In this document: piece after piece, positions 7,390 through 39,413 of the stretch
Position numbering within the stretch: the first letter of the stretch is position 1
How the letters are laid out: every line of letters starts with the position of its first letter
Origin: Actinomycetota bacterium
Lineage (GTDB): Bacteria; Actinomycetota; Acidimicrobiia; Acidimicrobiales; MedAcidi-G1
Assembly (NCBI GenBank): GCA_014381945.1
Contig: JACNKQ010000046.1
Location: 1-47,529 of the forward strand
Reading direction: 5' to 3'
DNA: 47,529 nt
Made by a program: the position numbers and the translations under genes
Notes under the pieces: model-generated
What the model was told of the DNA's origin: nothing
Seen by the model: the letters and a program-made list of their open reading frames with translations, nothing else
Database searches by the model: none

Positions 7390-7407
7390 ATGTGAACGGC
7401 TTCACGA
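7390..7407 (+). promoter_or_regulatory. Rex operator upstream of rex
   Basis: ATGTGAACGGCTTCACGA matches the Rex consensus TTGTGAA-N4-TTCACAA at 12 of 14 fixed positions. It covers the expected -35 region of the rex promoter (TAGGTT at 7413), ideal for autorepression that is relieved when NADH rises. Confidence 0.85.
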
Positions 7408-7424: not shown

Positions 7425-8102
7425 ATGGCAGCCCCGCTCGACGGCGTCCCCGATGGAGAAGCAGGCTCACTCCCCGAGGCCACCGTCGTTCGCCTGCCCG
7501 TCTACTTCAGGGGGCTGGTCGAACTCGCCGAGGACGGTACCACCACCGTCTCATCCCAGCAGCTCGCCGAACTGGCGGGCGTCAACGCCGCCAAGGTCCG
7601 CAAGGACCTCTCCTACCTCGGCTCCTACGGCACCCGCGGCGTCGGCTACGACGTCGGCTTCCTCATGCAGCAGATCGGACGCATCCTGGGCGGCAACGAG
7701 CCCGCACCCGTCGTCATCGTCGGTGCCGGCAATCTCGGCAAGGCCCTCAGCCGCTACGACGGATTCGGGGCCAGCGGCTTCCCGGTGGTGGCCATCGTCG
7801 ACGCCGACCCGGCGGTCGTCGGACGCAAGTCCGCCGGCGTCGTCGTCCACCACGTCGACGAACTCCCCAAGGTCGTCAAGAAGGCGGGCTGCCTCGTCGG
7901 CATCGTTGCCACCCCGGCGGCCGCAGCCCAGGAAGCGGTCGACCGCCTCGTTGCCGCCGGCGTCCGGTCGATCCTCAACTTCGCCCCCGTCGTGGTGACA
8001 GTTCCCGAAGGCATCGGCCTGCGCAAGGTCGACCTCGCCACCGAACTCCACATCCTCGGCTACTACGAACACCGCCGGGGTGCGAGCCGGGCCACAGGGT
8101 GA
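7425..8102 (+). CDS. rex: Redox-sensing transcriptional repressor Rex
   Basis: A 225-residue Rex protein. Residues about 23-75 form the winged-helix DNA-binding domain, with VSSQQLAELAGVNAAKVRKDLSYLGSYG and GTRGVGYDV typical of the family. Residues 90-205 are a Rossmann NAD(H)-binding domain (VVIVGAGNLGKALSRYDGF). The C-terminal helix that swaps between subunits follows. Rex represses at low NADH/NAD+ and leaves DNA when NADH binds. Beside it are hemA and four other haem genes, the classical Rex target neighbourhood in Streptomyces. A Rex operator lies in its own promoter and another before the respiratory operon at 17494. Confidence 0.96.
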   Translation: MAAPLDGVPDGEAGSLPEATVVRLPVYFRGLVELAEDGTTTVSSQQLAELAGVNAAKVRKDLSYLGSYGTRGVGYDVGFLMQQIGRILGGNEPAPVVIVGAGNLGKALSRYDGFGASGFPVVAIVDADPAVVGRKSAGVVVHHVDELPKVVKKAGCLVGIVATPAAAAQEAVDRLVAAGVRSILNFAPVVVTVPEGIGLRKVDLATELHILGYYEHRRGASRATG

Positions 8103-17472: not shown

Positions 17473-17478
17473 TACGAT
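17473..17478 (+). promoter_or_regulatory. Putative -10 box (TACGAT) of the respiratory operon
   Basis: TACGAT matches TATAAT at four of six positions, including the key TA and final T. A start near 17485 would place the Rex operator at about +10 to +27. No good -35 is visible, so confidence is moderate. Confidence 0.45.
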
Positions 17479-17493: not shown

Positions 17494-17511
17494 TTGTGCA
17501 GAATTTCACGA
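17494..17511 (+). promoter_or_regulatory. Rex operator upstream of the respiratory operon
   Basis: TTGTGCAGAATTTCACGA matches TTGTGAA-N4-TTCACAA at 12 of 14 fixed positions. It lies 60 nt before the first gene of the 21-gene operon and just downstream of a TACGAT -10 box, where bound Rex would block initiation or escape. Confidence 0.78.
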
Positions 17512-17571
17512 AGTCGCACTGTGGCCCCCTAACCACCCGCCCAACAGCCCGACGAGGAGTCACCGCACGAC

Positions 17572-18027
17572 ATGGTCGCGTTCGTCGCATCGATCATCGC
17601 CACCGTCGTGTTCATCTGGTGCATCCGCTGGTACCAGGGCCGCACACCCGTCGACCACGACTTCACCTGGGGCGAGGCCATGCTGTTCGCCACCTTCGTC
17701 TTCTTCATCTTCTTCTGGGTCTACGGCGTCGTCCCGCACCAGTGGTTGCAGTGGGCCGACAGCGAGCTCAACTGGCGTCCCGACCGCTTCATGGTCGGAC
17801 CACGGCTGGCCTGGACCGGCGACCGGGGAATCGTCGAATGGGTGCTCCCCTTCACGCTCGACTACCGCGTTCTGCGCGACTTCATCGCAGTCGGTATCTA
17901 CGTAGTCGCCCTGGGCGGCAACATCGTCATGTGGCGGCAGTGGCAGGAACGCGACCAGAAGACGACTGCACCGGTGCCGACCTCCGAGTACGGACGTCCG
18001 CTCTTCAAGGAGGGTGTCGGCGCATGA
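17572..18027 (+). CDS. Unknown three-helix membrane protein of the Rieske/cytochrome b cluster
   Basis: A 151-residue protein with hydrophobic helices at about residues 2-17, 36-54 and 109-128, and a charged cytoplasmic-looking tail (QWQERDQKTTAPVPTSEYGRP). The middle region is Trp-rich (PHQWLQWADSELNWRPDRF). There are no haem or iron-sulfur motifs. It is the first gene of the operon and overlaps the ferredoxin start by 4 nt (ATGA), so it is likely a structural or assembly subunit of the complex. GAGGAG lies about 12 nt before ATG 17572. No family is recognised. Confidence 0.8.
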   Translation: MVAFVASIIATVVFIWCIRWYQGRTPVDHDFTWGEAMLFATFVFFIFFWVYGVVPHQWLQWADSELNWRPDRFMVGPRLAWTGDRGIVEWVLPFTLDYRVLRDFIAVGIYVVALGGNIVMWRQWQERDQKTTAPVPTSEYGRPLFKEGVGA

Positions 18028-18440
18028 GCATCACCGACGCCAACCCCCCGCACCCCACGTTCATCGACGACTACGTCCTCCGGGAGGTCGACCTCGACTG
18101 GATGGCCAAGGCCGTCAAGCTCAAGCAGTTCATCCACATCGACCAGGCCGAATGCATCATGTGCGAAGGCTGCGTCGACATCTGTCCGTGGAAGTGCATC
18201 CACATGGTGCGACCCGACGCCATCGCCGAGGCGGTCGGGACCGGACAGCCGGGCATCGACCCGAGCGACCACGTGATCTTCACGATCGACGACGACGTGT
18301 GCACACGGTGCGCACTCTGCGTGGACCGCTGCCCCACCGGTGTCATCATCCTCGGCAAGATGGTTGAGGCACCTGCAGACGGCGACACCCACCAGCGCAC
18401 GACCAGCCACGGCTACGGCTACGGCATGCGTCTCGCGTAG
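18024..18440 (+). CDS. 2x[4Fe-4S] ferredoxin-type protein
   Basis: A 138-residue soluble protein with two complete cluster motifs: CIMCEGCVDICP (residues about 47-58) and CTRCALCVDRCP (about 91-102), both CxxCxxCxxxCP. The spacer between them is long and an N-terminal extension of about 40 residues (DDYVLREVDLDWMAKAVKLKQFIHID) precedes the first. It ends in a His/Gly/Tyr tail. Its place between an unknown membrane protein and cytochrome b suggests a peripheral electron-transfer subunit on the cytoplasmic face, or a ferredoxin shuttling to or from the second, NADH-module-less complex I. The partner is inferred. Confidence 0.92.
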   Translation: MSITDANPPHPTFIDDYVLREVDLDWMAKAVKLKQFIHIDQAECIMCEGCVDICPWKCIHMVRPDAIAEAVGTGQPGIDPSDHVIFTIDDDVCTRCALCVDRCPTGVIILGKMVEAPADGDTHQRTTSHGYGYGMRLA

Positions 18441-18490
18441 GCGCGGGCAACGACAGACACGACGAACGACAGGGCTAGGGAGAGACGACG

Positions 18491-19267
18491 GTGGCAGACA
18501 ACGGCAACAAGCCGGCGTTGCAGGAGCGCATGGGCCAGATCGGCGACCAGATGAAGGACTCGCAGGCCTGGGCGTCGATCTTCCGACCCGGTTCGATCTT
18601 CCGCAAGGGCTACAGCGACAGCCCGCGGAACCGCTCCTACGTGATCATGAACAGCGTGCTGTACCACCTCCACCCGGTGAAGGTGAAGCGGCACGCAGTG
18701 AAGGTCAGCTACACCCTCTGCCTCGGTGGCCTGAGCTTCTTCCTCTTCATCCTGCTCACGGTCACGGGCATCTTCCTGATGTTCTTCTACCGGCCCACTG
18801 CCGCCCAGGCCTGGGACGACATGCAGGCGCTCCAGACCGCCGTCGGCTTCGGCCTCATCGTGCGAAACATGCACCGGTGGGCGGCGCACCTCATGGTTCT
18901 GTCCGTGTTCCTGCACATGGCCCGAGTCTTCTACCACGGGGCCTACAAGCCGCCACGCGAGTTCAACTGGGTGATCGGCGTCATGCTCCTGCAGCTCACC
19001 CTGCTGCTGTCGTTCACCGGCTACCTGCTGCCATGGGACCAGCTGTCGCTATGGGCGGTCACGGTTGGCACCAACATGATGGGCTTCACGCCCGTATTCG
19101 GCGACCAGGTCCGCTTCGTCCTGCTGGGCGGCGTCGAGATCGGCACCGACACCCTGCTGCGCTGGTACGTACTCCATGTCCTGATGCTGCCGTTCGTGAT
19201 CGTCATCTTCATGGCGATCCACTTCTGGCGGGTCCGCAAGGACGGCGGCATCTCCGGACCGTTGTAG
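18491..19267 (+). CDS. b6-type cytochrome b (N-terminal four-helix subunit)
   Basis: A 258-residue protein colinear with chloroplast/cyanobacterial cytochrome b6: RNMHRWAAHLMVLSVFLHMARVF, PREFNWVIGVML, GYLLPWDQLSLWAV and the C-terminal RKDGGISGPL all match b6 segments. Haem ligands are His128/His142 (14 apart) and His229/His244 (15 apart), the b6 rather than bc1 spacing for the second pair. Cys77 in YTLCLGG aligns with b6 Cys35, and its distance to the first haem His (51 residues) is the same as in b6, implying covalent haem c-i at the quinone-reducing site. A cytoplasmic extension of about 40 residues precedes. GTG 18491 has a GGGAGAGACGACG leader. Confidence 0.94.
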   Translation: MADNGNKPALQERMGQIGDQMKDSQAWASIFRPGSIFRKGYSDSPRNRSYVIMNSVLYHLHPVKVKRHAVKVSYTLCLGGLSFFLFILLTVTGIFLMFFYRPTAAQAWDDMQALQTAVGFGLIVRNMHRWAAHLMVLSVFLHMARVFYHGAYKPPREFNWVIGVMLLQLTLLLSFTGYLLPWDQLSLWAVTVGTNMMGFTPVFGDQVRFVLLGGVEIGTDTLLRWYVLHVLMLPFVIVIFMAIHFWRVRKDGGISGPL

Positions 19268-19281
19268 GCCGAGGAAACACC

Positions 19282-19989
19282 ATGACCGAGATTCCGGAAC
19301 ATCTGCGCAAACGGGCCGAGGAGGCCCGCGCCAAGGCTGCCGCCGCAAAGGGAGGCGACGCCCCCGCTGCCACCTCCGAAGGCTCCGGCGAAAAAGTCCC
19401 CGCCGAACTCCTCGACCGCGGCACCCCGGCCGCCACCCCACCCGAGGGTGCAGCCCCCGCACAGGCCGGCCCGGCCCAGGGATCCGGCCCCGACGGCCAC
19501 AACCAGCGGCTGCTGACCGTCGTCAAGTCGGGGTCCATCCAGGACACCAAGTCCACGCCGATCGACAAGGTCCACGTCTGGCCCCACCTGCTGGTCGCCG
19601 AGTTCCTGTCGGCGATCATCATCACCCTGTTCACCACTCTCTTTTCGATCTTCGTGAACGCCCCGCTCCTCGAGTTGGCCGACTTCAACAAGACCCCGAA
19701 CCCCTCCAAGGCCCCCTGGTACTTCCTGGGGCTCCAGGAGCTCCTCACCATGTTCCACCCGATGGTGGCCGGCGTGACCATTCCCGGCATCGGCCTCTTC
19801 CTCCTGGTCCTGGCCCCCTACATCGACAAGAACCCGTCCCGGAAGCCCGAGGACCGCAAGTTCGCCGTGTCGCTGATGACCGTGCACCTCATGTTCTGGG
19901 CGGTGCTCGTCATGATCGGCTCGTTCTTCCGGGGCCCCGGCTTCAACTTCGTCTTCCCGTGGAACAGCGGCCTGTTCTTCGAGCTGTGA
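19282..19989 (+). CDS. Cytochrome b subunit IV-like protein (C-terminal three-helix half)
   Basis: A 235-residue protein. Residues 1-20 (MTEIPEHLRKRAEEARAKAA) form a charged helix shared with the cytochrome c at 16391; an Ala/Pro-rich linker runs to about 80. The membrane part has three helices (about 108-128, 155-175, 200-220) and the quinol-site signature NPSKAPWYFLGLQELL, equivalent to PEWY of bc1/b6f with Ala in place of Pro-Glu, as in many bacterial split cytochromes b. With the b6-type protein upstream it forms the cytochrome b core. ATG 19282 has GAGGAAA 6 nt upstream. Confidence 0.92.
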   Translation: MTEIPEHLRKRAEEARAKAAAAKGGDAPAATSEGSGEKVPAELLDRGTPAATPPEGAAPAQAGPAQGSGPDGHNQRLLTVVKSGSIQDTKSTPIDKVHVWPHLLVAEFLSAIIITLFTTLFSIFVNAPLLELADFNKTPNPSKAPWYFLGLQELLTMFHPMVAGVTIPGIGLFLLVLAPYIDKNPSRKPEDRKFAVSLMTVHLMFWAVLVMIGSFFRGPGFNFVFPWNSGLFFEL

Positions 19990-20051
19990 TCGCCATGACC
20001 CGCACACCGCCAACCGCAAACCGCCTCCCGGCGGACCCCGGGAGCTGAGCC

Positions 20052-20924
20052 GTGGCAGTCGTCATCGCAGTCATCGTGCTCGTCGTACTGGCCGGCGTCG
20101 TGCTGGTCGGTGCCTCACGCCGACGCGACAGCGGCGCAGCCGGGCTGTCCCGCGAGGCACGCAGGCGCGATCGTTCCAATCCGGTGCTCGCCACCGGGGT
20201 CGACGAATCCCTGTCGGGCCGCGAGTTCGAGACCGCAGAGGCGGCAGCCCGCACGGGCAACGATGTGGCGGTCGTCGAGTCTGCGCCGCCGGTGCCTTTC
20301 GTCGCCCCCGACCCGGTCGCCCTCGGCGTCACCCGCCGCCAGTTCTTCAACCGCAGCATCGTCGGGATGATGGGATTCGGCCTTTCCGGCTTCGGCGGTG
20401 CCTGCCTGGCGTTCCTGTGGCCCCAGGGTGTCAGCGGCTTCGGCTCCAAGATCAGGGTCGGCAACCTGGTCGAGGTCCTCGCCGACATCGAGACAAACAA
20501 CGGCTTCCTCTACAAGCCCGAGGGCCGCATGTGGATCACCGCCTATCCCAACGGGGCAGTCGAAAAGGCCCGGGCCGCCTACTCGCCGGTCGAGCTGGCC
20601 GGCATGACCGCCGGCACCGAACAGGGTTTCGACGCCGGCATCGTGGCGTTGTACCAGAAGTGCCCACACCTCGGCTGCCGCGTCCCGAACTGCGTGTCGT
20701 CGCAGTGGTTCGAGTGTCCCTGCCACGGTTCGCAGTACAACCAGGTCGGCGAGAAGCGGGGCGGTCCCGCCCCCCGCGGCATGGACCGCTTCGCCGTCGC
20801 AGTCGACGGCGGTGTCGTCGTCGTCGACACCGGCACCATCGTCCAGGGCCCGCCCATCGGCACCAACACAACCGGCCAGGAGGCCGAGGGCCCGCACTGT
20901 ATCGGCGAGGCGGGCGGGCACTAG
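20052..20924 (+). CDS. Rieske iron-sulfur protein
   Basis: A 290-residue protein, longer than typical Rieske proteins (about 180-200) because it has two membrane-targeting segments: an N-terminal helix (residues 2-20, VVIAVIVLVVLAGVVLVGA), a polar linker, and a second helix (about 105-125) behind a Tat-like TRRQFF motif. The 2Fe-2S ligands are in CPHLGC and CPCHGSQY. It passes electrons from menaquinol to the cytochrome c subunits. GTG 20052. The extra helix recalls the multi-helix Rieske proteins of actinobacterial QcrA but is arranged differently. Confidence 0.95.
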   Translation: MAVVIAVIVLVVLAGVVLVGASRRRDSGAAGLSREARRRDRSNPVLATGVDESLSGREFETAEAAARTGNDVAVVESAPPVPFVAPDPVALGVTRRQFFNRSIVGMMGFGLSGFGGACLAFLWPQGVSGFGSKIRVGNLVEVLADIETNNGFLYKPEGRMWITAYPNGAVEKARAAYSPVELAGMTAGTEQGFDAGIVALYQKCPHLGCRVPNCVSSQWFECPCHGSQYNQVGEKRGGPAPRGMDRFAVAVDGGVVVVDTGTIVQGPPIGTNTTGQEAEGPHCIGEAGGH

Positions 20925-20951
20925 CCCCCCGGTAGGAGACCCGAGACCGAG

Positions 20952-22163
20952 ATGAACCCGATGATCCTCGCAGCGAGCACGCAGCGCACGATCGGCCTGC
21001 TCCTAGCCATCGTCGTGATGGTCGGGTTCCTCGTGTACCTGCTGTTCAGCTTCCGCATCGGCAAGCGGGAACTGGGTTCCGAGGTCGAACTGGCCGCCAA
21101 CCGCAAGCCCTACCTCGACGACGACGACCTCGAGACCTTCCGCCTCGACAGGGCGCTGGTCTGGTCCCTCGTGACCCTCACCGCCGTCTCGATGATCCTG
21201 CCCGTCTACTGGCTGATGGAGCCGGCACGCCAGGAGAACGCAATCGTCGACTGGGTGAACCGATTCGAAAAGCGCGGCGCCCGCAACTTCGAGGAGGCGT
21301 GTTCCTCCTGCCACGGCCCCGGTGGCGTCGGTGGTGTCGCCGCCTTCACGCTGGTCGACGCCGAAGGCGCCTTCGTCGCACAGGTCGAGTGGAAGGCACC
21401 TGCCCTCACCACCGTGTTGTCACGATTCGACGAGGCCGAGGTCCGGCACATCCTCGACTACGGCCGGCCCGGCACGCCGATGCCCGCATGGGGCCTGCCC
21501 GGCGGCGGTCCGATGACCACCCAGCAGGTCGAACAGCTGATCGTCTACCTGCGGTCCGTCCAACTCGACCAGGATGATGCCACGGCCCAGATCGACGCCG
21601 GCATCGTCGCAGGTGCCAGGGCCGTCGTCACCGCAGCCGACGCCGAACTCATCGAAGCCGCCGACGTCGAAGCCGCCGCCGAAGCCTGGCTGGCGCGGGC
21701 TTCCGACCCGACCAGCGCCGACTACCTCCGCTACGGCGAGTTGATCTTCAACAACCCGGCAGCCCAGGGCGCCAACTCGTGCGCCCGCTGCCACACGCCC
21801 GGCTTCTCGTTCGGCGCCGCCGACGAGGACTCGACCGCGGCGCTGCTCGAGACCTGGCCCCGCCTGGCCGATTCCGGGATCCTCACCGGCTGGCAGCCGG
21901 CCCAGGGCCACGTGGGCCCGAGCCTCGAAGGCGTCGAGACACACTTCCCGACGGCGGCCCGCCAGGAGGAGTTCGTCCGTATCGGCTCGGAGGTAGGCGT
22001 CGGCTTCGGCAACGCCCGCAGCGGCACCGGCATGATGCCCGGCTTCGGCGGACGCGTGGATCCCGACGTCGTCGACTACGACACGGGAGGCGACGCCACC
22101 TACAGCCGCATCCTGACACCCGACCAGATCGCTGCAGTCGTGGCCTACGAGAGGAGCCGGTGA
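20952..22163 (+). CDS. Dihaem cytochrome c, membrane anchored
   Basis: A 403-residue protein with two N-terminal transmembrane helices (about 14-33 and 68-86, the latter after an acidic DDDDLETFRLDR stretch) and two cytochrome c domains. Haem sites are C117-SSC-H121 and C277-ARC-H281, with MPAWG and MMPGFGG as likely Met ligands. An Ala/Glu-rich helical segment (about 205-250) links the domains. It probably plays the cytochrome c1/QcrC role of accepting electrons from the Rieske centre. GGAGA precedes ATG 20952; the stop overlaps the next gene (TGATG). Confidence 0.93.
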   Translation: MNPMILAASTQRTIGLLLAIVVMVGFLVYLLFSFRIGKRELGSEVELAANRKPYLDDDDLETFRLDRALVWSLVTLTAVSMILPVYWLMEPARQENAIVDWVNRFEKRGARNFEEACSSCHGPGGVGGVAAFTLVDAEGAFVAQVEWKAPALTTVLSRFDEAEVRHILDYGRPGTPMPAWGLPGGGPMTTQQVEQLIVYLRSVQLDQDDATAQIDAGIVAGARAVVTAADAELIEAADVEAAAEAWLARASDPTSADYLRYGELIFNNPAAQGANSCARCHTPGFSFGAADEDSTAALLETWPRLADSGILTGWQPAQGHVGPSLEGVETHFPTAARQEEFVRIGSEVGVGFGNARSGTGMMPGFGGRVDPDVVDYDTGGDATYSRILTPDQIAAVVAYERSR

Positions 22164-23173
22164 TGTACCTGGCAGCCACCCTCGCCGGCATCGCCTGGGA
22201 CCCGAACATCGCAGGCACGCTGGCCGTGCTCACCGGCGTCGTCGTCCTCATGGGCTCAGTCTGGTTCATCCTCACCACCAACTCCGGCATCCGCGTCGGC
22301 ACCCTGCTCGCATTCGCCGCCTTCTTCGGGTGGATGTTCATCATGAGCACCACCTGGTGGATGTACGGCAAGGGATGGCAGGGAGACAGCCCCTCATGGC
22401 AGACGGTCGACATCAACGTCGGCGACCTGGGCGTCAGCGGCCTTGCCAGGGCACGCGATCTGCCCAACCCCGACGAGCTGAACACCGGCTACGAGTTGGT
22501 GGTCCATTCGGGCAACGCCCGGGCGACAGCCGAGTTCGGCACGCTTCCCACGGCCGCCGACAATCCCGACCTCAGCACCGACGAACTGGCTGCCCTGCAG
22601 GCCGACCGCCAGGTCCGCAACGAAACGGTGACCCGGTCGGAACTGGCCGCCGTGTCCCCCGACATAACCGAAGCCGCCGGCTGGCACGACCTCAACGGAT
22701 GGCGACTGCTGCCCACCACCGAGGCCGGTGACGCCCAGGCCCAGGCGGTCGCCGACATCCTGGCGCATCCCGACATCGGGTTCGTCAGCAACGCAGACTT
22801 CAAACTGCTCGATGCCTACTCCACGGGCGGCAAGCCCCGCCTCACCGAGGATCCGAGCCGGATCGACCGCATCACCCACTGGATCGCCAACTCGGCTCGT
22901 ATCACGCACCCGACCCGATACTCGGTCGTGCAACTCCAGCGGGTACTCGACCAGCCGACGATCCCCGGCGAGGCTCCGCCCCGTCCCATCGTCGACGAGG
23001 CCGAGCCCGTCGTGTCGGTCATCATGGTTCGCGACCTCGGGTCCGTCCGACTGCGGCCGGCACTCGTGATGGTCGGCTCCCTGATGGTCTTCCTCGCCCT
23101 GTGCTACTGGCTGCACGTCCGGGACAGGGAAGACATGGCACGCCGCAAGGAGTTCGAAGCAGCAAGGGCCTGA
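22163..23173 (+). CDS. Unknown membrane protein, large extracytoplasmic domain
   Basis: A 336-residue protein with two N-terminal helices (about 20-38 and 46-65, ending in a Trp-rich TTWWMYGKGWQG), an extracytoplasmic region of about 220 residues rich in Asp/Ala/Thr without cysteine motifs, and a C-terminal helix (about 295-315) with a charged cytoplasmic tail. There is no haem or Fe-S signature and no recognised family. It is coupled to the dihaem cytochrome c by a one-base overlap and precedes nuoA, so it is likely a structural subunit of the Rieske/cytochrome b complex, or a bridge to cytochrome c or to complex I. Confidence 0.8.
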   Translation: MYLAATLAGIAWDPNIAGTLAVLTGVVVLMGSVWFILTTNSGIRVGTLLAFAAFFGWMFIMSTTWWMYGKGWQGDSPSWQTVDINVGDLGVSGLARARDLPNPDELNTGYELVVHSGNARATAEFGTLPTAADNPDLSTDELAALQADRQVRNETVTRSELAAVSPDITEAAGWHDLNGWRLLPTTEAGDAQAQAVADILAHPDIGFVSNADFKLLDAYSTGGKPRLTEDPSRIDRITHWIANSARITHPTRYSVVQLQRVLDQPTIPGEAPPRPIVDEAEPVVSVIMVRDLGSVRLRPALVMVGSLMVFLALCYWLHVRDREDMARRKEFEAARA

Positions 23174-23241: not shown

Positions 23242-23721
23242 ATGTTGGGCCAGTACCTGCCTGTGGTGGCACTGCTCGTCCTCGCCGCCCTCTTCGCTGC
23301 GCTGAGCTTTGTGGCGTCGAGGCTCCTGGCGCCGCGACGGCCCCACGACAGGAAACTCGCACCATACGAGTGCGGGATCATCCCATCGCGCGAGACCCCC
23401 GAGCGGTTCCCGGTGCGCTTCTACCTCGTGGCGATGATCTTCATCGTGTTCGACATCGAGATCATCTTCTTCTACCCGTGGGCCGTGGCCCACCGGGGGA
23501 TAGGGCTCTTCGGCCTGGTGGCGGTGCTGATCTTCTCGGTCGCCGTGTTCGAGTCGTTCGTGTACCTCATCGGCAACGGGGCCCTCGAATGGGGCCCGAT
23601 CGCCGAGGTCCGCCAGGCGGTGTCGCGCAGGTTCGGCAGCGAGGTGGTCCGACCGGGCGTTCGCCAGGTCGGCCTCGAGGGGCGCGATGCCGGCAACCCG
23701 ACGATCGAAGGCGGGCCCTGA
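23242..23721 (+). CDS. nuoA: NADH-quinone oxidoreductase subunit A (complex I-1)
   Basis: A 159-residue membrane subunit with three helices. Family motifs: [12 protein letters not shown] (the quinone-side loop with the conserved Cys), [24 protein letters not shown] (with the acidic FDIE motif of helix 2). The C-terminus is extended by about 40 residues relative to the second-copy NuoA. It follows a 68-nt gap after the unknown membrane protein and starts the 14-gene complex I set; ATG 23242 overlaps nothing, whereas its stop overlaps nuoB (TGATG). Confidence 0.96.
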
Positions 23722-24311
23722 TGGCACGCGTACCGATCCTCGGCGATGTCTCCGGCGTCCTCGAGGAGGGCCTCGAGGGCCTCGAACACAACTTCGTCAC
23801 CGCCCGTATCGAGGACCTCGTCAAGTGGTCGCGGGCGCGTAGCTGCTGGCCGGCCACCTTCGGCCTGGCCTGCTGCGCCATCGAGATGATGGCCACAGGT
23901 GCCGCCCACTACGACCTGGCCCGCTACGGCATGGAGGTCTTCCGGGCATCGCCCCGCCAGGCCGACCTCATGATCGTCGCCGGGCGCGTCTCCCAGAAGA
24001 TGGCTCCGGTGCTGCGCCAGATCTACGACCAGATGATGGAGCCCAAGTGGGTCATCTCGATGGGCGTCTGCGCATCGAGCGGCGGCATGTTCAACAACTA
24101 CGCCATCGTGCAGGGGGTCGACCAGGTGGTGCCGGTCGACGTCTATGCCCCGGGCTGTCCCCCCGGCCCCGAGACCCTCATGCACGCCATCCTCACCCTG
24201 CACGACAAGATCCTCACCGGCGAGCTCACCATCCGCCGTGAGCAGACCGGCGCAGGTGCCGGAATCGACCTCGCCGAGGAACCGCCAGCCGAGTCGGTTG
24301 AGACACCGTGA
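23721..24311 (+). CDS. nuoB: NADH-quinone oxidoreductase subunit B (complex I-1)
   Basis: A 196-residue peripheral-arm subunit that binds terminal cluster N2. Ligands: the tandem Cys of [11 protein letters not shown], the Cys of MGVCASSGG and that of [29 protein letters not shown] is the family signature. An acidic C-terminal extension ([14 protein letters not shown]) follows the normal end. It overlaps nuoA by one base and nuoC by four. Confidence 0.97.
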
Positions 24312-24814
24312 GCGAAACCGACACCTTCGCCGATGAGCACGAGGCCGCACCGGTTGCCTCGACGGCCCTGTTCGGCCAGACCGTGCTGCACCCCGTCCGC
24401 GACGCATACGTAGCCACCGTCGAATCCCTGCGCGACGAGGGCTACTGCACCGCTACCTACCTCACCGTCGTCGACTACCTGACCCATCCCTGTCGTACCG
24501 GCCTTCCCGAGGGTGTCGAGCCCGAGCGCTTCGAGGTGGTGGTAGGCCTGTTCGACCATGCCCGTCGCCAACGGGTCCGACTCCGAATCCAGATACCCGC
24601 CGACGACCCGACCGTGCCGTCGCTGTTCGACCTGTTCCCCGGCACCGAGGCCATGGAGCGCGAGGCCTACGACCTGTTCGGCGTGTGCTTCGACGGCCAC
24701 CCCGACCACAGCCGGATCCTGCTCCCCGAGGACTGGACGGGCCATCCGCTGCGCAAGGACGAGGGAATCGGTGCCATCCCCGTCCAGTTCAAGGCCGCAT
24801 CGGAGCGACGGTGA
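24308..24814 (+). CDS. nuoC: NADH-quinone oxidoreductase subunit C (complex I-1)
   Basis: A 168-residue, 30-kDa-type subunit of the hydrophilic arm. [20 protein letters not shown]-like and [35 protein letters not shown] segments are characteristic. GTG 24308 overlaps the nuoB stop; the gene ends in a GTGA overlap with nuoD. NuoC and NuoD are separate, unlike the fused NuoCD of E. coli. Confidence 0.95.
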
Positions 24815-26127
24815 ACCCGGTGGACGAGGCGACCCCCGGCATCGACATGGGCTCCGACGAACGCGTCCGGCGCAGGGACGGCAGCGCCGTGCTCCGGATG
24901 ACCGAGGTCGAAGCGGCCGGGCTGGCCCTCGCCCCCAGCGATCCGGTCACCGGCGAACAGGCCGACGAGCGCATGATCCTCAACATGGGTCCTGCCCACC
25001 CGTCGACCCACGGGGTGCTCCGGCTGCTGCTCGAGATGGAGGGCGAGACCGTCCTGCGTTCGAAGCCGGTCATCGGATACCTGCACACCGGCATGGAGAA
25101 GACCGGCGAGAACCTCACCTTCCTCCAGGGCCCCACCAACGTCACCCGCATGGACTACGCCTCGCCGCTGTTTTCAGAGCTCGTGTTCTCCCTTGCCACC
25201 GAGCAGCTGCTCGGCATCGAGGTCCCGGTCCGTGCCACCTGGATCCGGATGCTCATGTGCGAGCTCAACCGGGCCGCATCCCACCTGCTCTTCCAGGCCA
25301 CCAACGGCATGGACCTGGGTGCCGTCTCGATGATGGTCTACGGCTGGCGCGAGCGCGAAGAGGTCCTGCGCTTTTTTGAAAAGGTCACAGGCCTGCGCAT
25401 GAACCACAACTACATCCGCCCCGGAGGCGTCGCCGCCGATCTCCCCGACGGCTGGCAGGAAGACCTCCGCCACCTGCTCGAAATCATCCCGCCCCGCCTC
25501 GACGAATACGAGGTGCTGCTCAACAACCAGCCCATCTTCCGTGCCCGCCTCCAGGGTGTGGGCGTCCTCGAACCCGCCGAGGCCCTCGCCCTCTCGGCGA
25601 CAGGACCGATCCTTCGGGCCACCGGCTACGACTGGGACCTGCGCCGCGACGAGCCCTACCTCGCCTACGACCAGGTCGAATTCGACGTCGTCGTCGGCAC
25701 CTGCGGCGATGCCTTCGACCGCTTCGCCGTCCGCCTCGAGGAGATTCGGCAGTCGCTGCACATCGTCGAACAGGTCCTCGACCTCATGCCGGACGGAGAC
25801 TTCCGGACACAGGACAAGAAGGTCACCCCGCCGCCGCGTGCCCGCATCGACGAGTCGATGGAGGCGCTGATCCACCACTTCAAGATCTTCACCGAGGGCT
25901 TCCACGTGCCCGAAGGCGAGGTGTACACCGCCGTCGAGTCTCCCCGGGGAGAGCTGGGCTGCTACCTCGTGTCCGACGGCGGACCCAAGCCCTACCGAAT
26001 GCACATCCGCGGCCCGAGCTTCGCCAACCTCCAGACGCTGCCCCACCTCATGCACGGCCGCCTCATTGCAGACGCCGTTGCCGTCATCTCGTCGGTCGAT
26101 CCGATCATGGGCGAGGTGGACCGCTGA
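24811..26127 (+). CDS. nuoD: NADH-quinone oxidoreductase subunit D (complex I-1)
   Basis: A 438-residue, 49-kDa-type subunit that forms the quinone pocket with NuoB. The quinone-site loop MGPAHPSTHGVLRL holds the conserved His, and Tyr116 in RMDYASP corresponds to Nqo4 Tyr87. Thus the pocket looks canonical, unlike the copy at 40642. An N-terminal extension of about 50 residues precedes the family start. No [NiFe]-hydrogenase CxxC motifs occur. GTG 24811. Confidence 0.96.
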   Translation: MNPVDEATPGIDMGSDERVRRRDGSAVLRMTEVEAAGLALAPSDPVTGEQADERMILNMGPAHPSTHGVLRLLLEMEGETVLRSKPVIGYLHTGMEKTGENLTFLQGPTNVTRMDYASPLFSELVFSLATEQLLGIEVPVRATWIRMLMCELNRAASHLLFQATNGMDLGAVSMMVYGWREREEVLRFFEKVTGLRMNHNYIRPGGVAADLPDGWQEDLRHLLEIIPPRLDEYEVLLNNQPIFRARLQGVGVLEPAEALALSATGPILRATGYDWDLRRDEPYLAYDQVEFDVVVGTCGDAFDRFAVRLEEIRQSLHIVEQVLDLMPDGDFRTQDKKVTPPPRARIDESMEALIHHFKIFTEGFHVPEGEVYTAVESPRGELGCYLVSDGGPKPYRMHIRGPSFANLQTLPHLMHGRLIADAVAVISSVDPIMGEVDR

Positions 26128-26786
26128 TGTCGTTCTTCACCGAAGCCAACGCCCGCACCGCTGCTGAGGTCATAGCCCGATATCCGAGGCCCAGGTCGGC
26201 CGTCATCCCGCTGCTGCACCTGGCGCAGGAGCAGGAGGGATGGGTCACCCGCGACGCCATGGTCGAGATCGCCGAGCTCACAGGCGCCACGCCCGCAGAG
26301 GTGCTCGGCACAGGATCGTTCTACGAGATGTTCAGGTTCCACCCGGTCGGCCGCTACGTGGTCAACGTGTGCACCAACATCTCCTGCCAACTGCTCGGCG
26401 GCGAGGAACTGCTCCACCACGTCGAGGAATCCCTGGAGGTCCACGCCGGGGGGACCACCGCCGACGGGATGTTCACCGTCGAAGAGGTGGAGTGCGTCGC
26501 CGCATGCACCGAGGCGCCGTGTTTCACCGTCAACTACCGCTACTTCCACCGGGCGGACCCCGACACGTTCGACGCCGTCGTCGACGACCTGCGTGCCGGC
26601 CGCAGCCCGCTGGCCCGTGGCGCACAGGGCGACGACGGGAACCTGCCAGCCCACGGCACCCTCGGACGCCTCCGCCAGCACATCCCAGACGACCGCAGGG
26701 CCGGCGTCGTGCCACCCGAACAGGCCGACCAGGAGCCAGTGTGGCTGCGGACGGCTCCCTCCACAACGAGCGCGGCCGATGCCTGA
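26127..26786 (+). CDS. nuoE: NADH-quinone oxidoreductase subunit E (complex I-1)
   Basis: A 219-residue, 24-kDa-type subunit of the NADH module with the 2Fe-2S cluster N1a. Ligands lie in NVCTNISCQLLGG and VECVAACTEAPCF. The core ends near residue 155; a polar, low-complexity tail of about 60 residues follows. ATG 26127 overlaps the nuoD stop. The gene overlaps nuoF by 8 nt. Confidence 0.95.
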   Translation: MSFFTEANARTAAEVIARYPRPRSAVIPLLHLAQEQEGWVTRDAMVEIAELTGATPAEVLGTGSFYEMFRFHPVGRYVVNVCTNISCQLLGGEELLHHVEESLEVHAGGTTADGMFTVEEVECVAACTEAPCFTVNYRYFHRADPDTFDAVVDDLRAGRSPLARGAQGDDGNLPAHGTLGRLRQHIPDDRRAGVVPPEQADQEPVWLRTAPSTTSAADA

Positions 26787-28221
26787 GCCGACGATCGTGC
26801 ACCCCGACGGCATGGGCTACATACCCCACGCCGCCGGCTTCGTCGCCAACGAGGGCCCAAAGCTGGTCAGCGGCCGCTTCCCCTACGAGGACTCCTACAC
26901 GCTCGAATGCGCCCTCGCCACCGGCGCCTACACAGGCCTGCGTGCCGCACTCGGCCGCACCCCCGCCGACGTGCACACCGAGGTCCGCGACGCCACCCTC
27001 CTCGGCCGCGGCGGCGCCGGCTTCCCCGCCGGCGTCAAGTGGGGCTTCTGCCCCGAGGACGTCTGGCCCCGCTACCTCGTCGTCAACGGCGACGAGAGCG
27101 AACCCGGCACCTACAAGGACCGCCTCCTCATGGAACGCGACCCGCACCAGCTCATCGAGGGCTGCCTCATAGCCTGCTACGCCCTCGGCCTGTCGCAGTG
27201 CTTCCTGTACGTGCGAGGCGAGATGGCCCTCGCCCAGGAGCGCCTGGCCGTCGCCCTCAACGACGCCTACGAAGCCGGCTACGTCGGACGCAACATCTGC
27301 GACACCGACTTCTCCGTCGACATCACCCTCCACTGGGGCGCAGGTGCCTACATCGTCGGCGAGGAGACTGCGCTCATAGAGAGCCTCGAGGGCAACCGGG
27401 GGATGCCCCGCCTCAAGCCGCCGTACTTCCCGGCGGCCATCGGCCTCTACGGCAGGCCTACGATCGTCAACAACGTCGAGACCCTCGCCAACCTGCCGTG
27501 GATCCTCGAACACGGCGCCATCGCCTACAGGGGTTACGGCTCCGAGGCATCGCCCGGCACCCGCCTGTTCGCCGTCTCCGGGCACGTCGTGCGGCCCGGC
27601 GTCTACGAGGTCGAACAGGGCGTCACCACCTACCGGGACCTCATCTACGGCCCCAACTTCTGCCGGGGCATCCGGGAAGGCAACGAGCTCAAGGCGTTCA
27701 TCCCCGGTGGAGCCTCGGCGCCGTGGTTCTTCGAGGAGCAGCTCGACCTGTCCCTCGAGGCCCGTGACATCGGCGCCGCCGGGTCGATGCTCGGCTCCGG
27801 AGCGATCGTCGTCATGGACCACACCACAGATGTCGTGAAGGCCTGCCTGCGGATCGTGAGGTTCTTCGCCCGCGAGTCGTGCGGCAAGTGCTCTCCGTGC
27901 CGGGAGGGCACCAGCTGGGAGGAGAAGATCCTCGAGCGCATCCTCGACGGCCACGGGCGGCCGTCCGACCTGGACCTGCTGCTCGACATCGGCGACAACA
28001 TCAGCCCCGGTCCCTACCCCGTAGCCGCCCACGGTGCCGCCGGCCTCGACGCCGTGCCGTTCCCGCCACTCCAGACCACCATCTGTCCACTCGGCCCGTC
28101 GTCCGTGGCACCCATCACCTCGGCTCTGCGTCGCTTCCGCTCCGAGTTCGAGGCCAGGATCACGCGCCATGAGGGCATCCCCGTCCGGTCGGCCCCGGTC
28201 GTCGACGGGGATCCGGCATGA
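26779..28221 (+). CDS. nuoF: NADH-quinone oxidoreductase subunit F (complex I-1)
   Basis: A 480-residue, 51-kDa-type flavoprotein that oxidises NADH. FMN/NADH motifs: LLGRGGAGFPAGVKWG, VNGDESEPGTYKDR and GAGAYIVGEETALIESLEG (Val where most have Cys). The N3 cluster ligands are ESCGKCSPCREG plus the Cys of TTICPLG. ATG 26779 lies inside the end of nuoE; the stop overlaps nuoG. Only this complex I set carries the NADH-binding subunit. Confidence 0.96.
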   Translation: MPEPTIVHPDGMGYIPHAAGFVANEGPKLVSGRFPYEDSYTLECALATGAYTGLRAALGRTPADVHTEVRDATLLGRGGAGFPAGVKWGFCPEDVWPRYLVVNGDESEPGTYKDRLLMERDPHQLIEGCLIACYALGLSQCFLYVRGEMALAQERLAVALNDAYEAGYVGRNICDTDFSVDITLHWGAGAYIVGEETALIESLEGNRGMPRLKPPYFPAAIGLYGRPTIVNNVETLANLPWILEHGAIAYRGYGSEASPGTRLFAVSGHVVRPGVYEVEQGVTTYRDLIYGPNFCRGIREGNELKAFIPGGASAPWFFEEQLDLSLEARDIGAAGSMLGSGAIVVMDHTTDVVKACLRIVRFFARESCGKCSPCREGTSWEEKILERILDGHGRPSDLDLLLDIGDNISPGPYPVAAHGAAGLDAVPFPPLQTTICPLGPSSVAPITSALRRFRSEFEARITRHEGIPVRSAPVVDGDPA

Positions 28222-30698
28222 ACGACGTGGGACAGTCCGTGGAGATCACCGTCGACGGCCGCACCGTCCTGGCGAACCCGGGCGAACTGCTGATCGACGC
28301 CTGCGAACGCACCGGCACCTACATCCCGAGGTTCTGCCACCATCCGCGGATGCGGCCGGTGGGCATGTGCCGGTCGTGCCTCGTCGAGGTCGACACCGGT
28401 CGGGGTCCGGCGCTGCAGGCCTCCTGCATGCTCGAGTGCAGTCCCGGCATGCAGGTCGACACCGAATCCGAGCGCACCCGCAAGGCCCAGGCCGGCGTGC
28501 TCGAGTTCCTGCTCGTCAACCACCCCCTCGACTGCCCCGTCTGCGACAAGGGCGGAGAGTGCCCGCTCCAGGACCAGACGATGGCATTCGGACCGGGCGA
28601 GAGCCGCTTCGTCGAAGAGAAGCGACATTTCGAAAAGCCCATCCCGGTCAACGACAACGTCTTCCTCGACCGGGAGCGCTGCATCCTCTGCGACCGTTGC
28701 ACCCGCTTCGCCGACGAGGTGGCCGGCGACGCCCTGATCCACTTCCAGGGTCGGGGCTCGGACACCGAGGTCAACACCTTCCCCGACGAGCCCTTCAGCT
28801 CCTACTTCAGCGGCAACACCGTTCAGGTCTGCCCGGTCGGCGCACTGACCGCAGCGCCCTACCGCTTCAAGGCCCGCCCCTGGGACCTCGAGGAGGTCGA
28901 ATCCACCAGCGTCGTCGACAGCGTCGGCAGCCGCATCGCAGTGCAGTCGTCACGCGACTGTGTGCTGCGCTTCCAGGGGGTCGACGCCGACGCCGTCAAC
29001 TGGGGCTGGCTCTGCGACAAGGAGCGCTTCATATTCGAGGCGTACGACCACGAGGACCGCCTCGGGACGCCGCTGCTGCGCGGCGACGACGGCGACCTGG
29101 CACCGACCGGATGGGGCGAAGCGCTCGCCGCTGCAGCTGCCGCACTCACCGACGTCGACCCCGACCGGATCGCGGTCCTGGGCGGAGCCCGCCTCACCAA
29201 CGAGTCGCAGTACGCCTGGACCAAGTTCGCCAAGGGTGTGCTGGGCACCGACCATGTCGACGCCCAGTTGGGAGACGGACTGCCCGCAGACTTCGTCCTC
29301 GGCCTGCCAAGGGCGACCATCGACGAGGCCTGCACCCCGGGTGGCATCATCGTGCTGCTCGGCCCCGACCCCAAGGAGGAACTGGGGTCGTTGTATCTGC
29401 GCCTGCGCCATGCGGTCGTCCACGACGGTGCCACGCTGATCGAACTGACACCCCGGGCGACGGGCCTCACGCCGTTCGCCGACCATTCGCTGCGGGTGCG
29501 CCCCGGAGAGGCGGTAGATGTCGTCCGCGCCATGTTCGGAGAGGGGGGCACCGCACCAATCGGCGGGGTGACCGTCGAAGAGGCCCAGGCGGTCGGTGCG
29601 ATCGTTTCCGGGGCGGCAGTCGGTCAGAACCGTCCGGTCACCGTGCTGTTGGGACGGCAGTCGTTGGCTGAGGCACCCGGGACGGTCGTCGATGCGGCCC
29701 TCGTCCTGCACGACTGGATCGCCGATGTCCGCTTCCTGTCGATGCTGCGCCGTGGCAACGTCCACGGTGCCCTCGACCTCGGGCTGGCCCCTGGCCTGCT
29801 TCCCGGGCGGGTCGGCCTCGACGAGGGCCGGCCCAGGTTCGCCGCCGCCTGGCCGACCACCCCTGCCACGAAGGGCCGAGATGCGCTCGAATCCCTACGG
29901 GCAGCCGCCGACGGTGAGGTCGATGTCCTGGTGCTGCTCGGCGCCGATGTCCTGACCGACGTCCCCGACCACGACCTGGCGCGCCGCGGGCTCGAAGGGG
30001 CCGGGACGGTCATCGCCCTGGACCTGTTCGCCACCCCGACCGTGGCCGCCGCCGACGTGGTCCTGCCTGCCACCGCCCCGACAGAGACCGACGGCACCGT
30101 CACCAACCTCGAGGGTCGGGTGAGCATCGTGGCCCGGAAGGTGACCCCACCGGGGACCGCCCGCCCCGACTGGATGATCGCCGTCGAACTGGCCCGCCGG
30201 CTGGGGGCCGACCTCGGAATCTCCTCGCCCGATGACGTGTGGGCCGAACTCTCGGTCGTCTCACCGATCCACGCCCACATCGACCCGGAGGCGCTCGCCG
30301 TGCAGGCCCGGGAGGGCATCCTCGTCAGCGGCGGCCCGGCCCTGGTCCGCCCGGCGCCCCTCGAGGTGCCCAGCCACGACAAGAACTCCTACCGCCTGGT
30401 CGTCACGCGCTCGATGTACGACTGCGGCGTGCTCACCGCCCACAGTCGATCGCTGGCGGGACTGGCCCCCGTGACCCGGCTCGCGTTCGAGCCCACCGAC
30501 TTCGCCGCCCTCGGGGTGGCCGAGGGCGGCAGAATCGAGGTCCGGGGACCGAGGGGCAACATCGATGTCGTCGTCGGCCCCGATTCCCGGGTCACCAAGG
30601 GCACCGCCCACCTCCTGTTCAACCAGCGGGGCGTTTCGGCCGGCGACCTGATCGAGGCCACCGCTGCGGTGATCGACCTGACTGTGGTGCCGGTCTGA
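28218..30698 (+). CDS. nuoG: NADH-quinone oxidoreductase subunit G (complex I-1)
   Basis: An 826-residue, 75-kDa-type subunit. The N-terminal 2Fe-2S domain has PRFCHHPRMRPVGMCRSCLVEV and ASCMLEC; the His-Cys-rich cluster is HPLDCPVCDKGGECPLQD; further 4Fe-4S ligands are in RCILCDRCTRF and VQVCPVGAL. The C-terminal 600 residues are a molybdopterin-oxidoreductase-like domain without cofactor ligands, including VLPATAPTETDGTVTNLEGR. It carries electrons from NuoF/E to NuoI. ATG 28218 overlaps the nuoF stop. Confidence 0.96.
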   Translation: MNDVGQSVEITVDGRTVLANPGELLIDACERTGTYIPRFCHHPRMRPVGMCRSCLVEVDTGRGPALQASCMLECSPGMQVDTESERTRKAQAGVLEFLLVNHPLDCPVCDKGGECPLQDQTMAFGPGESRFVEEKRHFEKPIPVNDNVFLDRERCILCDRCTRFADEVAGDALIHFQGRGSDTEVNTFPDEPFSSYFSGNTVQVCPVGALTAAPYRFKARPWDLEEVESTSVVDSVGSRIAVQSSRDCVLRFQGVDADAVNWGWLCDKERFIFEAYDHEDRLGTPLLRGDDGDLAPTGWGEALAAAAAALTDVDPDRIAVLGGARLTNESQYAWTKFAKGVLGTDHVDAQLGDGLPADFVLGLPRATIDEACTPGGIIVLLGPDPKEELGSLYLRLRHAVVHDGATLIELTPRATGLTPFADHSLRVRPGEAVDVVRAMFGEGGTAPIGGVTVEEAQAVGAIVSGAAVGQNRPVTVLLGRQSLAEAPGTVVDAALVLHDWIADVRFLSMLRRGNVHGALDLGLAPGLLPGRVGLDEGRPRFAAAWPTTPATKGRDALESLRAAADGEVDVLVLLGADVLTDVPDHDLARRGLEGAGTVIALDLFATPTVAAADVVLPATAPTETDGTVTNLEGRVSIVARKVTPPGTARPDWMIAVELARRLGADLGISSPDDVWAELSVVSPIHAHIDPEALAVQAREGILVSGGPALVRPAPLEVPSHDKNSYRLVVTRSMYDCGVLTAHSRSLAGLAPVTRLAFEPTDFAALGVAEGGRIEVRGPRGNIDVVVGPDSRVTKGTAHLLFNQRGVSAGDLIEATAAVIDLTVVPV

Positions 30699-31921
30699 TG
30701 GTCATCGCCGCCGATCCTCTCCTGCTCGGGCCCATCGGCCTCGAGGTGTTCCTGATCATCCTGATCAAGGTGGTCGCCTCGTTCGTCCTGCTGATGGTGT
30801 CGGTGATGCTCATGGTCTGGTTCGAGCGCAAGCTCATCAGCGACATGCAGAACCGAATCGGACCGGACGTGGCCGGCCCCTGGGGCATCCTCCAGACCCT
30901 GGCCGACGGCATCAAGTTGTTCTTCAAAGAGGATCTGATCCCGGAAAACGCCGACCGGCCGGTGTTCAAGCTGGCGCCCTACCTGTCGCTGGTGCCGGCC
31001 TTCCTCGTCTTTGCCATCGTCCCGATCGGCGGCGACTTCCGCACCGGCGACGGCACCGTGGGCTGGTTCGGCCACCGCACCTTCCTGCAGGTGGCCGATC
31101 CGCCGATGGGCATCCTGCTGTTCCTCGCCCTCTCCTCGGTAGCCGTCTACGGCGTGATGCTGGCCGGCTGGTCATCGGGCTCCAAGTACCCGCTGCTCGG
31201 CTCGGTCCGTGCGTCCGCCCAGATGATCAGCTACGAGGCGGCGCTGGGCCTCGCCATCGCCACGGTCTTCCTGACCGGCGGCTCCCTGTCCACCCATGAG
31301 ATCGTGTCCAGCCAGTCGAACTGGAACTGGAATGTGGCCACCACCGGCGTCGTACCGTTTCTCATCTTCCTGGTGGCCGGCACCGCCGAGCTGAACCGCC
31401 CGCCGTTCGACCTGGTCGAGGCCGAACAGGAACTGGTGGGCGGGTTCCACACCGAGTACAGCTCGATCCGATTCGCCCTGTTCTTCCTCGCCGAGTTCAT
31501 GAACGTGATCACCATGTCAGCGATCGCCGTAACGCTCTTCCTCGGCGGACCCGACGGACCGATCCTTGTGGAGCAGGTCGCCTGGATCTGGCCGATCCTG
31601 TGGTTCTCCCTGAAGCTCCTGGCGTTCCTGTTCAGCTTCGTCTGGCTCCGGGCGACCCTGCCGAGAATCCGGTACGACCAGCTCATGGACCTGGGCTGGA
31701 AGGTCCTGATCCCGCTGGCACTCGGCTGGTTCCTCCTGATAGCAGCGCTCAACGTGGGCCGCGACAGGGGCTGGTCGCCGGTGCCCGTCGTGCTCGTCAG
31801 CGTGGCCGTGCTGTGGGCGGGCGCCGCCATGCTGGGTGGCGCCGTGCGCAAGGCCCGTGCCGAGCGGCGGGCGATCGAGCTCGGCTCCGACGAGGTGCTC
31901 GACGCCGGGGACGGTGCCTGA
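30698..31921 (+). CDS. nuoH: NADH-quinone oxidoreductase subunit H (complex I-1)
   Basis: A 407-residue, eight-helix subunit linking the quinone pocket to the proton channels. Canonical residues are present: the ERK motif (Glu43-Arg44-Lys45 in VWFERKLISDMQNRIGP) and Arg234 in AELNRPPFDLVEAEQELV. A C-terminal extension with an extra helix and charged tail is visible. One-base overlaps couple it to nuoG and nuoI. Confidence 0.96.
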   Translation: MVIAADPLLLGPIGLEVFLIILIKVVASFVLLMVSVMLMVWFERKLISDMQNRIGPDVAGPWGILQTLADGIKLFFKEDLIPENADRPVFKLAPYLSLVPAFLVFAIVPIGGDFRTGDGTVGWFGHRTFLQVADPPMGILLFLALSSVAVYGVMLAGWSSGSKYPLLGSVRASAQMISYEAALGLAIATVFLTGGSLSTHEIVSSQSNWNWNVATTGVVPFLIFLVAGTAELNRPPFDLVEAEQELVGGFHTEYSSIRFALFFLAEFMNVITMSAIAVTLFLGGPDGPILVEQVAWIWPILWFSLKLLAFLFSFVWLRATLPRIRYDQLMDLGWKVLIPLALGWFLLIAALNVGRDRGWSPVPVVLVSVAVLWAGAAMLGGAVRKARAERRAIELGSDEVLDAGDGA

Positions 31922-32547
31922 TGGGCTACTTCCGCGGCTTCGCCGTCACGTTCCGCAAGCTCTGGGAGAAGCGGGTCACCATCCCGTACCCCGAGCAGAA
32001 GCGAGACAAACCCGAGCGCCTCCACGGCCGCCACGTCCTCAACCGGTACGAGGACGGCATGGAGAAGTGCATCGGCTGCGAGCTCTGCGCCGGCGTGTGT
32101 CCCGCCAACTGCATCTACGTGCGCGGCGCCGACAATCCGCCCGACGACCCGGTGTCACCGGGCGAGCGCTTCGGATTCGTCTACGAGATCAACTACCTGC
32201 GGTGCATCCACTGTGACCTCTGCGTCGAGGCCTGTCCGACCGAGGCCATCACCGAGTCGAAGCTGTTCGAGTTCTCGTTCACCAACCGTTCCGACGCCGT
32301 GTACACCAAGGACGAACTGATGGTCGACGGCGAAACCGGTCGGCCGCAGCAGTTGCCCTGGGAGGACTGGCGCGACGGCGAGGACACCCACACCTCGGGT
32401 TGGATGCGTGCAACGTCCCCGTCGGGATCCGCCGCCTACGTCGGGAAGGTCTCCTGGTCGGGAGAACTCGGCTACGGCATCCGCGCCCCGGAACAGGGTC
32501 GGTCGGGCGGGGAAGCCAACGGGGACGACGAGGAGGAAGGCTCCTGA
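31921..32547 (+). CDS. nuoI: NADH-quinone oxidoreductase subunit I (complex I-1)
   Basis: A 208-residue, 23-kDa-type subunit with clusters N6a/N6b: CIGCELCAGVCPANC and CIHCDLCVEACPTEA. It relays electrons from NuoG to N2 on NuoB. The C-terminal 60 residues form an acidic, Gly/Ser-rich tail (ending GDDEEEGS). ATG 31921 overlaps the nuoH stop by one base, and its own stop overlaps nuoJ. Confidence 0.96.
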   Translation: MGYFRGFAVTFRKLWEKRVTIPYPEQKRDKPERLHGRHVLNRYEDGMEKCIGCELCAGVCPANCIYVRGADNPPDDPVSPGERFGFVYEINYLRCIHCDLCVEACPTEAITESKLFEFSFTNRSDAVYTKDELMVDGETGRPQQLPWEDWRDGEDTHTSGWMRATSPSGSAAYVGKVSWSGELGYGIRAPEQGRSGGEANGDDEEEGS

Positions 32548-33146
32548 TGGATGCCGCCGTGTTCATCGTCAGCGCCGTGATCGTGCTGTCGGGCGCCTTC
32601 GGGGTGCTCCTGGCCCGCAACCCGGTCCACGCCGCCCTCTTCCTCGTCCAGTCCGTTTTCGGCGTGGCCGTGCTGTTCCTGCTACTGGATGCCACGTTCC
32701 TCGCCGCCGTCCAGGTGATCGTCTACGCCGGCGCCATCGTCATCCTGTTCCTCTTCGTGATCATGCTGCTCGGCGTAGACCGGGCCGAGGACCTGGATGT
32801 AGAGCCCATAGCCGGACAGCGGCCGCTCGCAGTCGTCATAGGTGCCGGAATCCTGGGGACCACGCTCTCCGCCCTGCTGGTGGCGGTAGGTGGGCCGACC
32901 GGTGCCCCGGCGACCAATGCCCCTCTGGGCGACGCCGGCGACAACGCCCAACGCCTGGGTGAGGCGCTGTTCACCGACCACGTCTTCGCAGTCGAGTTGA
33001 CCGCCCTGCTGCTCACCGTCGCCGTCGTCGGCGCCGTCGTGCTGGTCCGCCGCCTCGCCGGACCGCTCCAGCCCCTTCCGGTAGCGGCGGCTGCCCCGGA
33101 AACCCAAGGCGAAGCGGATACCCCGGACGAAGGAGAAGGCGCCTGA
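32547..33146 (+). CDS. nuoJ: NADH-quinone oxidoreductase subunit J (complex I-1)
   Basis: A 199-residue, five-helix membrane subunit. [54 protein letters not shown] spans helices 2-3, including the pi-bulge helix with conserved Tyr. A charged, Pro-rich cytoplasmic tail ends the protein. It overlaps both neighbours by one base. Confidence 0.95.
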
Positions 33147-33451
33147 TGGACGTCACCGTCGCCTGGTACCTGACGCTCGGTGCCGTCCTGTTCACGCTGG
33201 GCGCCGTCGGCCTCCTGGTGCGTCGCAACCCGCTCGTGATGTTCATGTGCGTCGAGTTGATGCTCAACGCCGTCAACCTCACCTTCGTCAGCCTGGGCGA
33301 CGCCCTGGGTGACCTGGGCGGGCAGGTATCGGTGTTCTTCGTGCTGGTGGTGGCAGCCGCCGAGGTCGTGGTGGGCCTCGGGATCATCGTTGCGATCATG
33401 CGCCGACGCTCCGGGGCGACCGTCGACGACCTCTCTGTGCTGAGGGGTTAG
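33146..33451 (+). CDS. nuoK: NADH-quinone oxidoreductase subunit K (complex I-1)
   Basis: A 101-residue, three-helix subunit. Conserved membrane Glu residues lie in [14 protein letters not shown] and [18 protein letters not shown], both needed for proton translocation. Normal family length. ATG 33146 overlaps the nuoJ stop. Confidence 0.96.
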
Positions 33452-33454
33452 GGC

Positions 33455-39047: not shown

Positions 39048-39413
39048 GTGTCCGAGTTCCTCCGCAGCTGGCTGGTCCTGGTGGTCTTCGGTGGCCTGGC
39101 CGTGGCCGTGGTCGGCACCTTCCTCGGTCTCGGCAGCCTGCTGCGCCCGCAACGCGCCACCGAGCAGAAGGTCATGAACTACGAAAGCGGCGTCGACCCG
39201 CAGGGCGACCGCTGGAGCCAGTCGAACATCCGCTACTACGTGTTCGCCCTCATGTTCGTGCTCTTCGACGTGGAAGTCGTGTTCATCTTCCCGTGGGCCG
39301 CCCGCCTCGAGGCCTACGGCATGTTCGGCCTCGTCGAGATGGCCATCTTCATCTTCATCCTCGCCCTGGGCCTGTTCTACGCCTGGCGCAAGCGACTGCT
39401 GCGTTGGATATGA
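39048..39413 (+). CDS. nuoA: Complex I-2 subunit A
   Basis: A 121-residue, three-helix NuoA of usual length. [44 protein letters not shown] contains the helix-2 acidic motif, but the loop Cys of the common YECG motif is replaced by Ser (YESG). It differs strongly from NuoA-1, so the two sets are not a recent duplication. GTG 39048 appears leaderless. A 22-nt gap precedes nuoB. Confidence 0.94.

Follow-up and report, generated by a model that had tools for sequence, protein, structure and literature searches.

Rex bound to NAD+ binds its operators and represses, and NADH releases it from DNA (PMC8836258, PMC5355995). Control of rex-hem, nuo, atp, and cyd by Rex is already known in Streptomyces. 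Streptomyces avermitilis Rex has been footprinted on TTGTGCACGCGTTCACAA (rex), TTGTGACCTGCTTCACAT (nuo), and TTGTGATACGGTTCACGA (atp), and at the cydA operator the protected region extends from −3 to +25 (PMC5355995). As far as the open-access literature that we searched goes, Rex has not been reported in Acidimicrobiales. Here, we analyze a candidate Rex operator within a 47,529-nt stretch of DNA from an uncultured member of this order; this whole stretch is referred to below as the window.

The arrangement found resembles the Rex regulon of S. avermitilis and S. coelicolor in several respects. In both cases, there is a rex-hem operon with an operator of its own (PMC5355995), operators are located near the promoter before nuo and atp, and the 18-bp motif is the same, including the C at position 6 of the S. 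avermitilis rex operator. Unlike in Streptomyces, complex I genes in the window are preceded by cytochrome b, Rieske, and cytochrome c genes in what appears to be one unit, so that one operator would serve both. The operator before this unit is located just after the putative −10 element, as in Streptomyces cydA, whereas the Streptomyces nuo operator lies between −35 and −10.

The rex gene and the respiratory operon

The relevant features of the window are as follows:

7390–7407, + strand: predicted Rex operator of rex itself, ATGTGAACGGCTTCACGA, 17 nt before the rex ATG and just upstream of a −10-like TAGGTT
7425–8102, + strand: rex, redox-sensing repressor (ATG at 7425), first gene of rex-hemA-hemC-hemD-hemB
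17473–17478, + strand: putative −10 element TACGAT, 15 nt upstream of the operator
17494–17511, + strand: predicted Rex operator of the cytochrome b/complex I operon, TTGTGCAGAATTTCACGA, 61–78 bases upstream of the first gene
17512–17514, + strand: AGT directly 3′ of the operator, forming AAGT (17511–17514) together with the last A of the operator
17572–18027, + strand: ORF1, first gene of the operon, a 151-aa membrane protein of no family
18024–18440, + strand: 2x[4Fe-4S] ferredoxin-like protein
18340–19989, + strand: cytochrome b, given as an open frame whose actual start is probably close to 18437; has a C-terminal cytochrome b domain
20052–20924, + strand: Rieske protein
20952–22163, + strand: c-type cytochrome
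22163–23173, + strand: conserved 336-aa membrane protein of no known family
23242–38903, + strand: nuoABCDEFGHIJKLMN, a complete 14-subunit complex I
39048–47529: second complex I set, nuoABCDHIJKL followed by the beginning of another gene; no nuoEFG

The rex product contains an N-terminal winged helix (PF06971, 5e-18) and a Rossmann NAD(H) domain (PF02629, 4e-20) and scores 304 bits against the NCBIfam Rex equivalog NF003992 (cut-off of 226). It shares both domains, the recognition helix VRKDLSY, the wing RGVGY, and the GxGxxG and FAPV motifs with Rex proteins of Thermus, Thermotoga, and Bacillus (3IKT/3IKV, 7WB3, and 2VT2/2VT3). The DNA-reading residues Arg48, Lys49, Arg60, and Gly61 of T. 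maritima Rex align to R59, K60, R71, and G72 here, and its NAD(H) residues Tyr100 and Asp191 align to the Tyr of SRYDGF and the Asp of RKVDL. The genes targeted by Rex in Thermus, Thermotoga, and Bacillus differ from those considered here.

The operon downstream of TTGTGCAGAATTTCACGA, described in the initial annotation as a 21-gene unit, is made up of 20 closely packed genes (ORF1, ferredoxin, cytochrome b, Rieske, cytochrome c, one membrane protein, and nuoA-N) that overlap or are separated by about 70 nt or less; a single transcript probably spans all of them. The cytochrome b complex at 17572–23173 is unusual. ORF1 and the 336-aa membrane protein have no family, a ferredoxin-like protein (about 80 to 90% identical across the family) is included, and cytochrome b, which is weakly ExtQ-like, can be recognized in its C-terminal half only. 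A gene for a further c-type cytochrome (PF13442; 16391–17146, − strand) is oriented divergently, with 425 nt of intergenic DNA between it and the operon.

The second complex I set lacks nuoEFG and therefore the NADH-oxidizing part. The 144-nt gap before it carries a promoter-like TTAGGTT, and the set may form a separate transcript. In the genome of the window, this gap contains no Rex-type site; control of the second set by Rex is unsupported there. A Rex-type site, TCGTGAACCCGTTCACAT, is present in the corresponding gap of a relative (G036, C10:30539–30556, locus L281), and similar matches were found in G035, G038, and G046.

The predicted operator and its conservation

A Rex operator controlling the cytochrome b/complex I operon had been proposed at 17494–17511 in the initial annotation, and both the coordinates and the sequence TTGTGCAGAATTTCACGA are exact. 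The site matches the Rex operator pattern TTGTGAANNNNTTCACAA with two mismatches and, as is expected of a Rex operator, lies in a promoter. The annotation had further estimated that 0.15 such sites would occur in the window by chance at equal base use; we obtained 0.153. Since the window is 69% GC, this estimate is conservative, and the expectation falls to 0.011 when composition is taken into account and to 0.02 in dinucleotide shuffles. The partner site said to precede rex is real (ATGTGAACGGCTTCACGA at 7390–7407). Two sites were therefore found against 0.02 expected, and two sites occurred in 0 of 100 shuffles, which bears out the earlier view that the pair is unlikely to be a coincidence.

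Genome-wide scans, conducted as pattern searches, revealed three sites with up to two mismatches in 2.49 Mb (0.55 expected from composition). Each precedes an operon: rex-hem, the cytochrome b/complex I genes, or the ATP synthase genes. With the loose core pattern TTGTGN8CACAA, 3 matches were found against 7.5 expected, and this pattern was dropped as uninformative; the inner A and T are what makes the operator pattern specific.

The third site (G000:C37:6497–6514; L003, L288) is located ~90 nt upstream of the first gene of the ATP synthase operon, where, as read from translations, atpI-type genes are followed by subunits a, c, b, delta, alpha, gamma, and beta. The site appears to contain the likely −10 element (TAGATT), with a −35-like TTG(T/C)CC 17 nt upstream. 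Of the 28 evaluable family loci, 20 have kept it, with TNGNGAWTAGATTCACAA as the commonest form; the site is absent from genus g3 and from part of g4, where some of the smaller genomes are found.

Perfect half-sites on both sides (GTGAA/TTCAC), which are typical of Rex operators but not required, are not present in TTGTGCAGAATTTCACGA, whose left half is GTGCA. In 29 of 30 relatives, the base at position 6 is C and not the A that Rex contacts, which makes the left half-site suboptimal. The footprinted S. avermitilis rex operator deviates in the same way; an imperfect left half-site is therefore not disqualifying. More generally, the three footprinted S. avermitilis operators span a range within which the site falls.

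The operator had also been described as lying just after a −10 box. A −10-like TACGAT is indeed present upstream, with counterparts TAGCAT, TAAGAT, or TACGAT in relatives; a full −35/−10 consensus was not found by our scan. Transcription would be expected to start near 17485; the operator would then span about +10 to +27, where a bound repressor blocks polymerase.

Conservation of the site in relatives, suggested earlier as a check, was assessed in the family and in the wider order. The site was present in 41 of 41 evaluable family genomes, i.e., those with the ferredoxin gene and an assembled site region, and in most of the order. Presence was scored by pattern; G004, in which the site differs by one base, was counted from the locus search, and G017 was left out because its contig ends before the site. 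In each of 30 family loci, exactly one site (≤3 mismatches, up to 3.4 kb searched) was found, always at the same position. Mean pairwise identity was 83% over the 18 site positions and 33 to 37% in the flanks, which consist of diverged DNA. Because the motif served as the anchor of the alignment, the difference between site and flanks carries more weight than the invariance itself. Of 48 family genomes, 44 contain between one and three matches to the operator pattern, chiefly located at this operon or at rex, while a backward control pattern has 7 matches across all 48. In the wider order, the site takes the form TTGTG(A/C)N6TTCAC(G/A/T)A and often directly follows a TACAC −10 element.

The rex promoters of the family contain ATGTGAAN4TGCACAA, which is the reverse of the asymmetric word found at the operon (GTGCA-N4-TTCAC). 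Those of the wider order mostly contain TTGTGAAN4NGCAC.

The AAGT that begins with the last base of the operator is invariant in 30 of 30 aligned family loci, and its three bases past the operator are unexplained by the Rex palindrome. AAGT and C6 could mark the site of a second protein that reads the promoter together with Rex, or a weak Rex half-site tuned in its affinity. Besides their near-invariance in the family, this idea draws on an extra inverted half-site, TTCACGAAGTTCGTGAA, directly after the site in some relatives; it has to be set against the fact that much of the order has not kept AAGT and that the footprinted S. avermitilis rex operator also has C6. We regard such a second reader or tuned half-site as an unlikely addition to binding by Rex; it is not an alternative to it. 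In L159, L163, L173, and L176, the right half-site is directly followed by the inverted half-site, perhaps a second Rex contact.

Joint presence and loss of the site and rex

In a sample of genomes of the order having the operon, the site was present in 34 of 39 genomes with rex and in 3 of 21 genomes without it, with 0.5 to 2% expected by chance (Fisher P = 3e-8, uncorrected for kinship). The absence of rex was confirmed with a Pfam model (HMM). In family f27, genus g32 lacks both rex and the site, while G213 has both; in family f18, G209 lacks both, while three other genomes have both. Both are absent throughout f36 and f59; the only site in f52, that of G171, is doubtful. These groups (f27/g32, f36, f52, f59, and G209 of f18) were treated as lineages rather than as 18 independent events; we assume, without a tree, at least three independent co-losses of rex and the site.

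Two of the three genomes with the site but without rex (G048 and G174) are 83 to 84% complete, and rex may be missing from the assembly. Conversely, in five genomes with rex (G053, G110, and G228 of f7, G066, and G071), no site could be recognized up to 1.2 kb from the ferredoxin gene; these genomes may have a differently organized operon.

This distribution also bears on whether a different regulator reads the site. CRP and GlxR control respiratory genes in Corynebacterium and Mycobacterium, and the CRP consensus, TGTGA-N6-TCACA, has the same spacing as the site. A CRP/FNR-family protein of this kind, controlling respiration in response to cAMP or another ligand, could in principle recognize half-sites and spacing that overlap its consensus, and a CRP-like protein is encoded in the genome (at C9). 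However, in contrast to the Corynebacterium and Mycobacterium systems, the site follows rex and not crp: CRP is kept at 59 to 65% identity in seven genomes that lack both rex and the site (G073, G122, G157, G188, G237, G209, and G176). In addition, there are only one to three copies of the motif per genome, and it is found again at rex itself, a pattern unlike that of a global CRP regulon. The inner A7 and T12, which are invariant in the family, are part of the Rex but not of the CRP consensus. We therefore set aside a CRP/FNR-type site as very improbable.

Even less credible is a similarity that arose by chance or from core-promoter sequence, with no regulator involved. The site is close to the likely transcription start, and nothing else speaks specifically for this origin. 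It is at odds with the conservation in all 41 evaluable family genomes, the specificity seen genome-wide, the 0.02 sites expected in the shuffled window, and the loss of the site together with rex, and was rejected. In contrast, conservation, co-occurrence with rex, and the word shared with rex promoters all support the original reading of the site as a Rex operator preceding the cytochrome b/complex I operon. By these sequence comparisons, TTGTGCAGAATTTCACGA is very probably a docking site of Rex, which is much the best candidate for its reader.

A proposed redox circuit

We consider it highly likely that TTGTGCAGAATTTCACGA is the operator of the Rex encoded 10 kb upstream and jointly switches the cytochrome b complex and complex I according to NADH/NAD+. 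The binding, NAD+/NADH switching, repression, and transcript extent in this scheme are inferred from characterized Rex proteins. A Rex dimer carrying NAD+ would occupy the TTGTGCA-N4-TTCACGA half-site pair just downstream of the transcription start and block RNA polymerase. As the proportion of NADH to NAD+ goes up, NADH would free Rex from DNA, and cytochrome b, Rieske, and cytochrome c genes would be transcribed together with those of complex I. The rex-hem and ATP synthase operons would be under Rex control as well, and the NADH/NAD+ ratio would thereby govern haem supply along with complex I, the cytochrome b complex, and ATP synthase as one set.

The circuit is not of a new kind; the scheme extends the one known from Streptomyces to an entire bacterial order. 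What is new is the joint cytochrome b/complex I target, the depth of conservation, and the repeated co-loss with rex across an uncultured order. A broader and more tentative possibility, on which we would not rely at present, is that Rex acts in Acidimicrobiales as a compact switch governing the entire oxidative phosphorylation set, in which one operator serves two complexes, the weak half-site and AAGT set the affinity or admit a partner, and several lineages have discarded the regulator and its operators together.

The analysis yields a testable redox circuit, derived from sequence alone, for uncultured and largely marine bacteria. In these organisms, a single NADH/NAD+ sensor would coordinate haem and ATP synthase with complex I and the cytochrome b complex, and the recurrent disappearance of rex together with the operator represents a natural experiment on the worth of such control.
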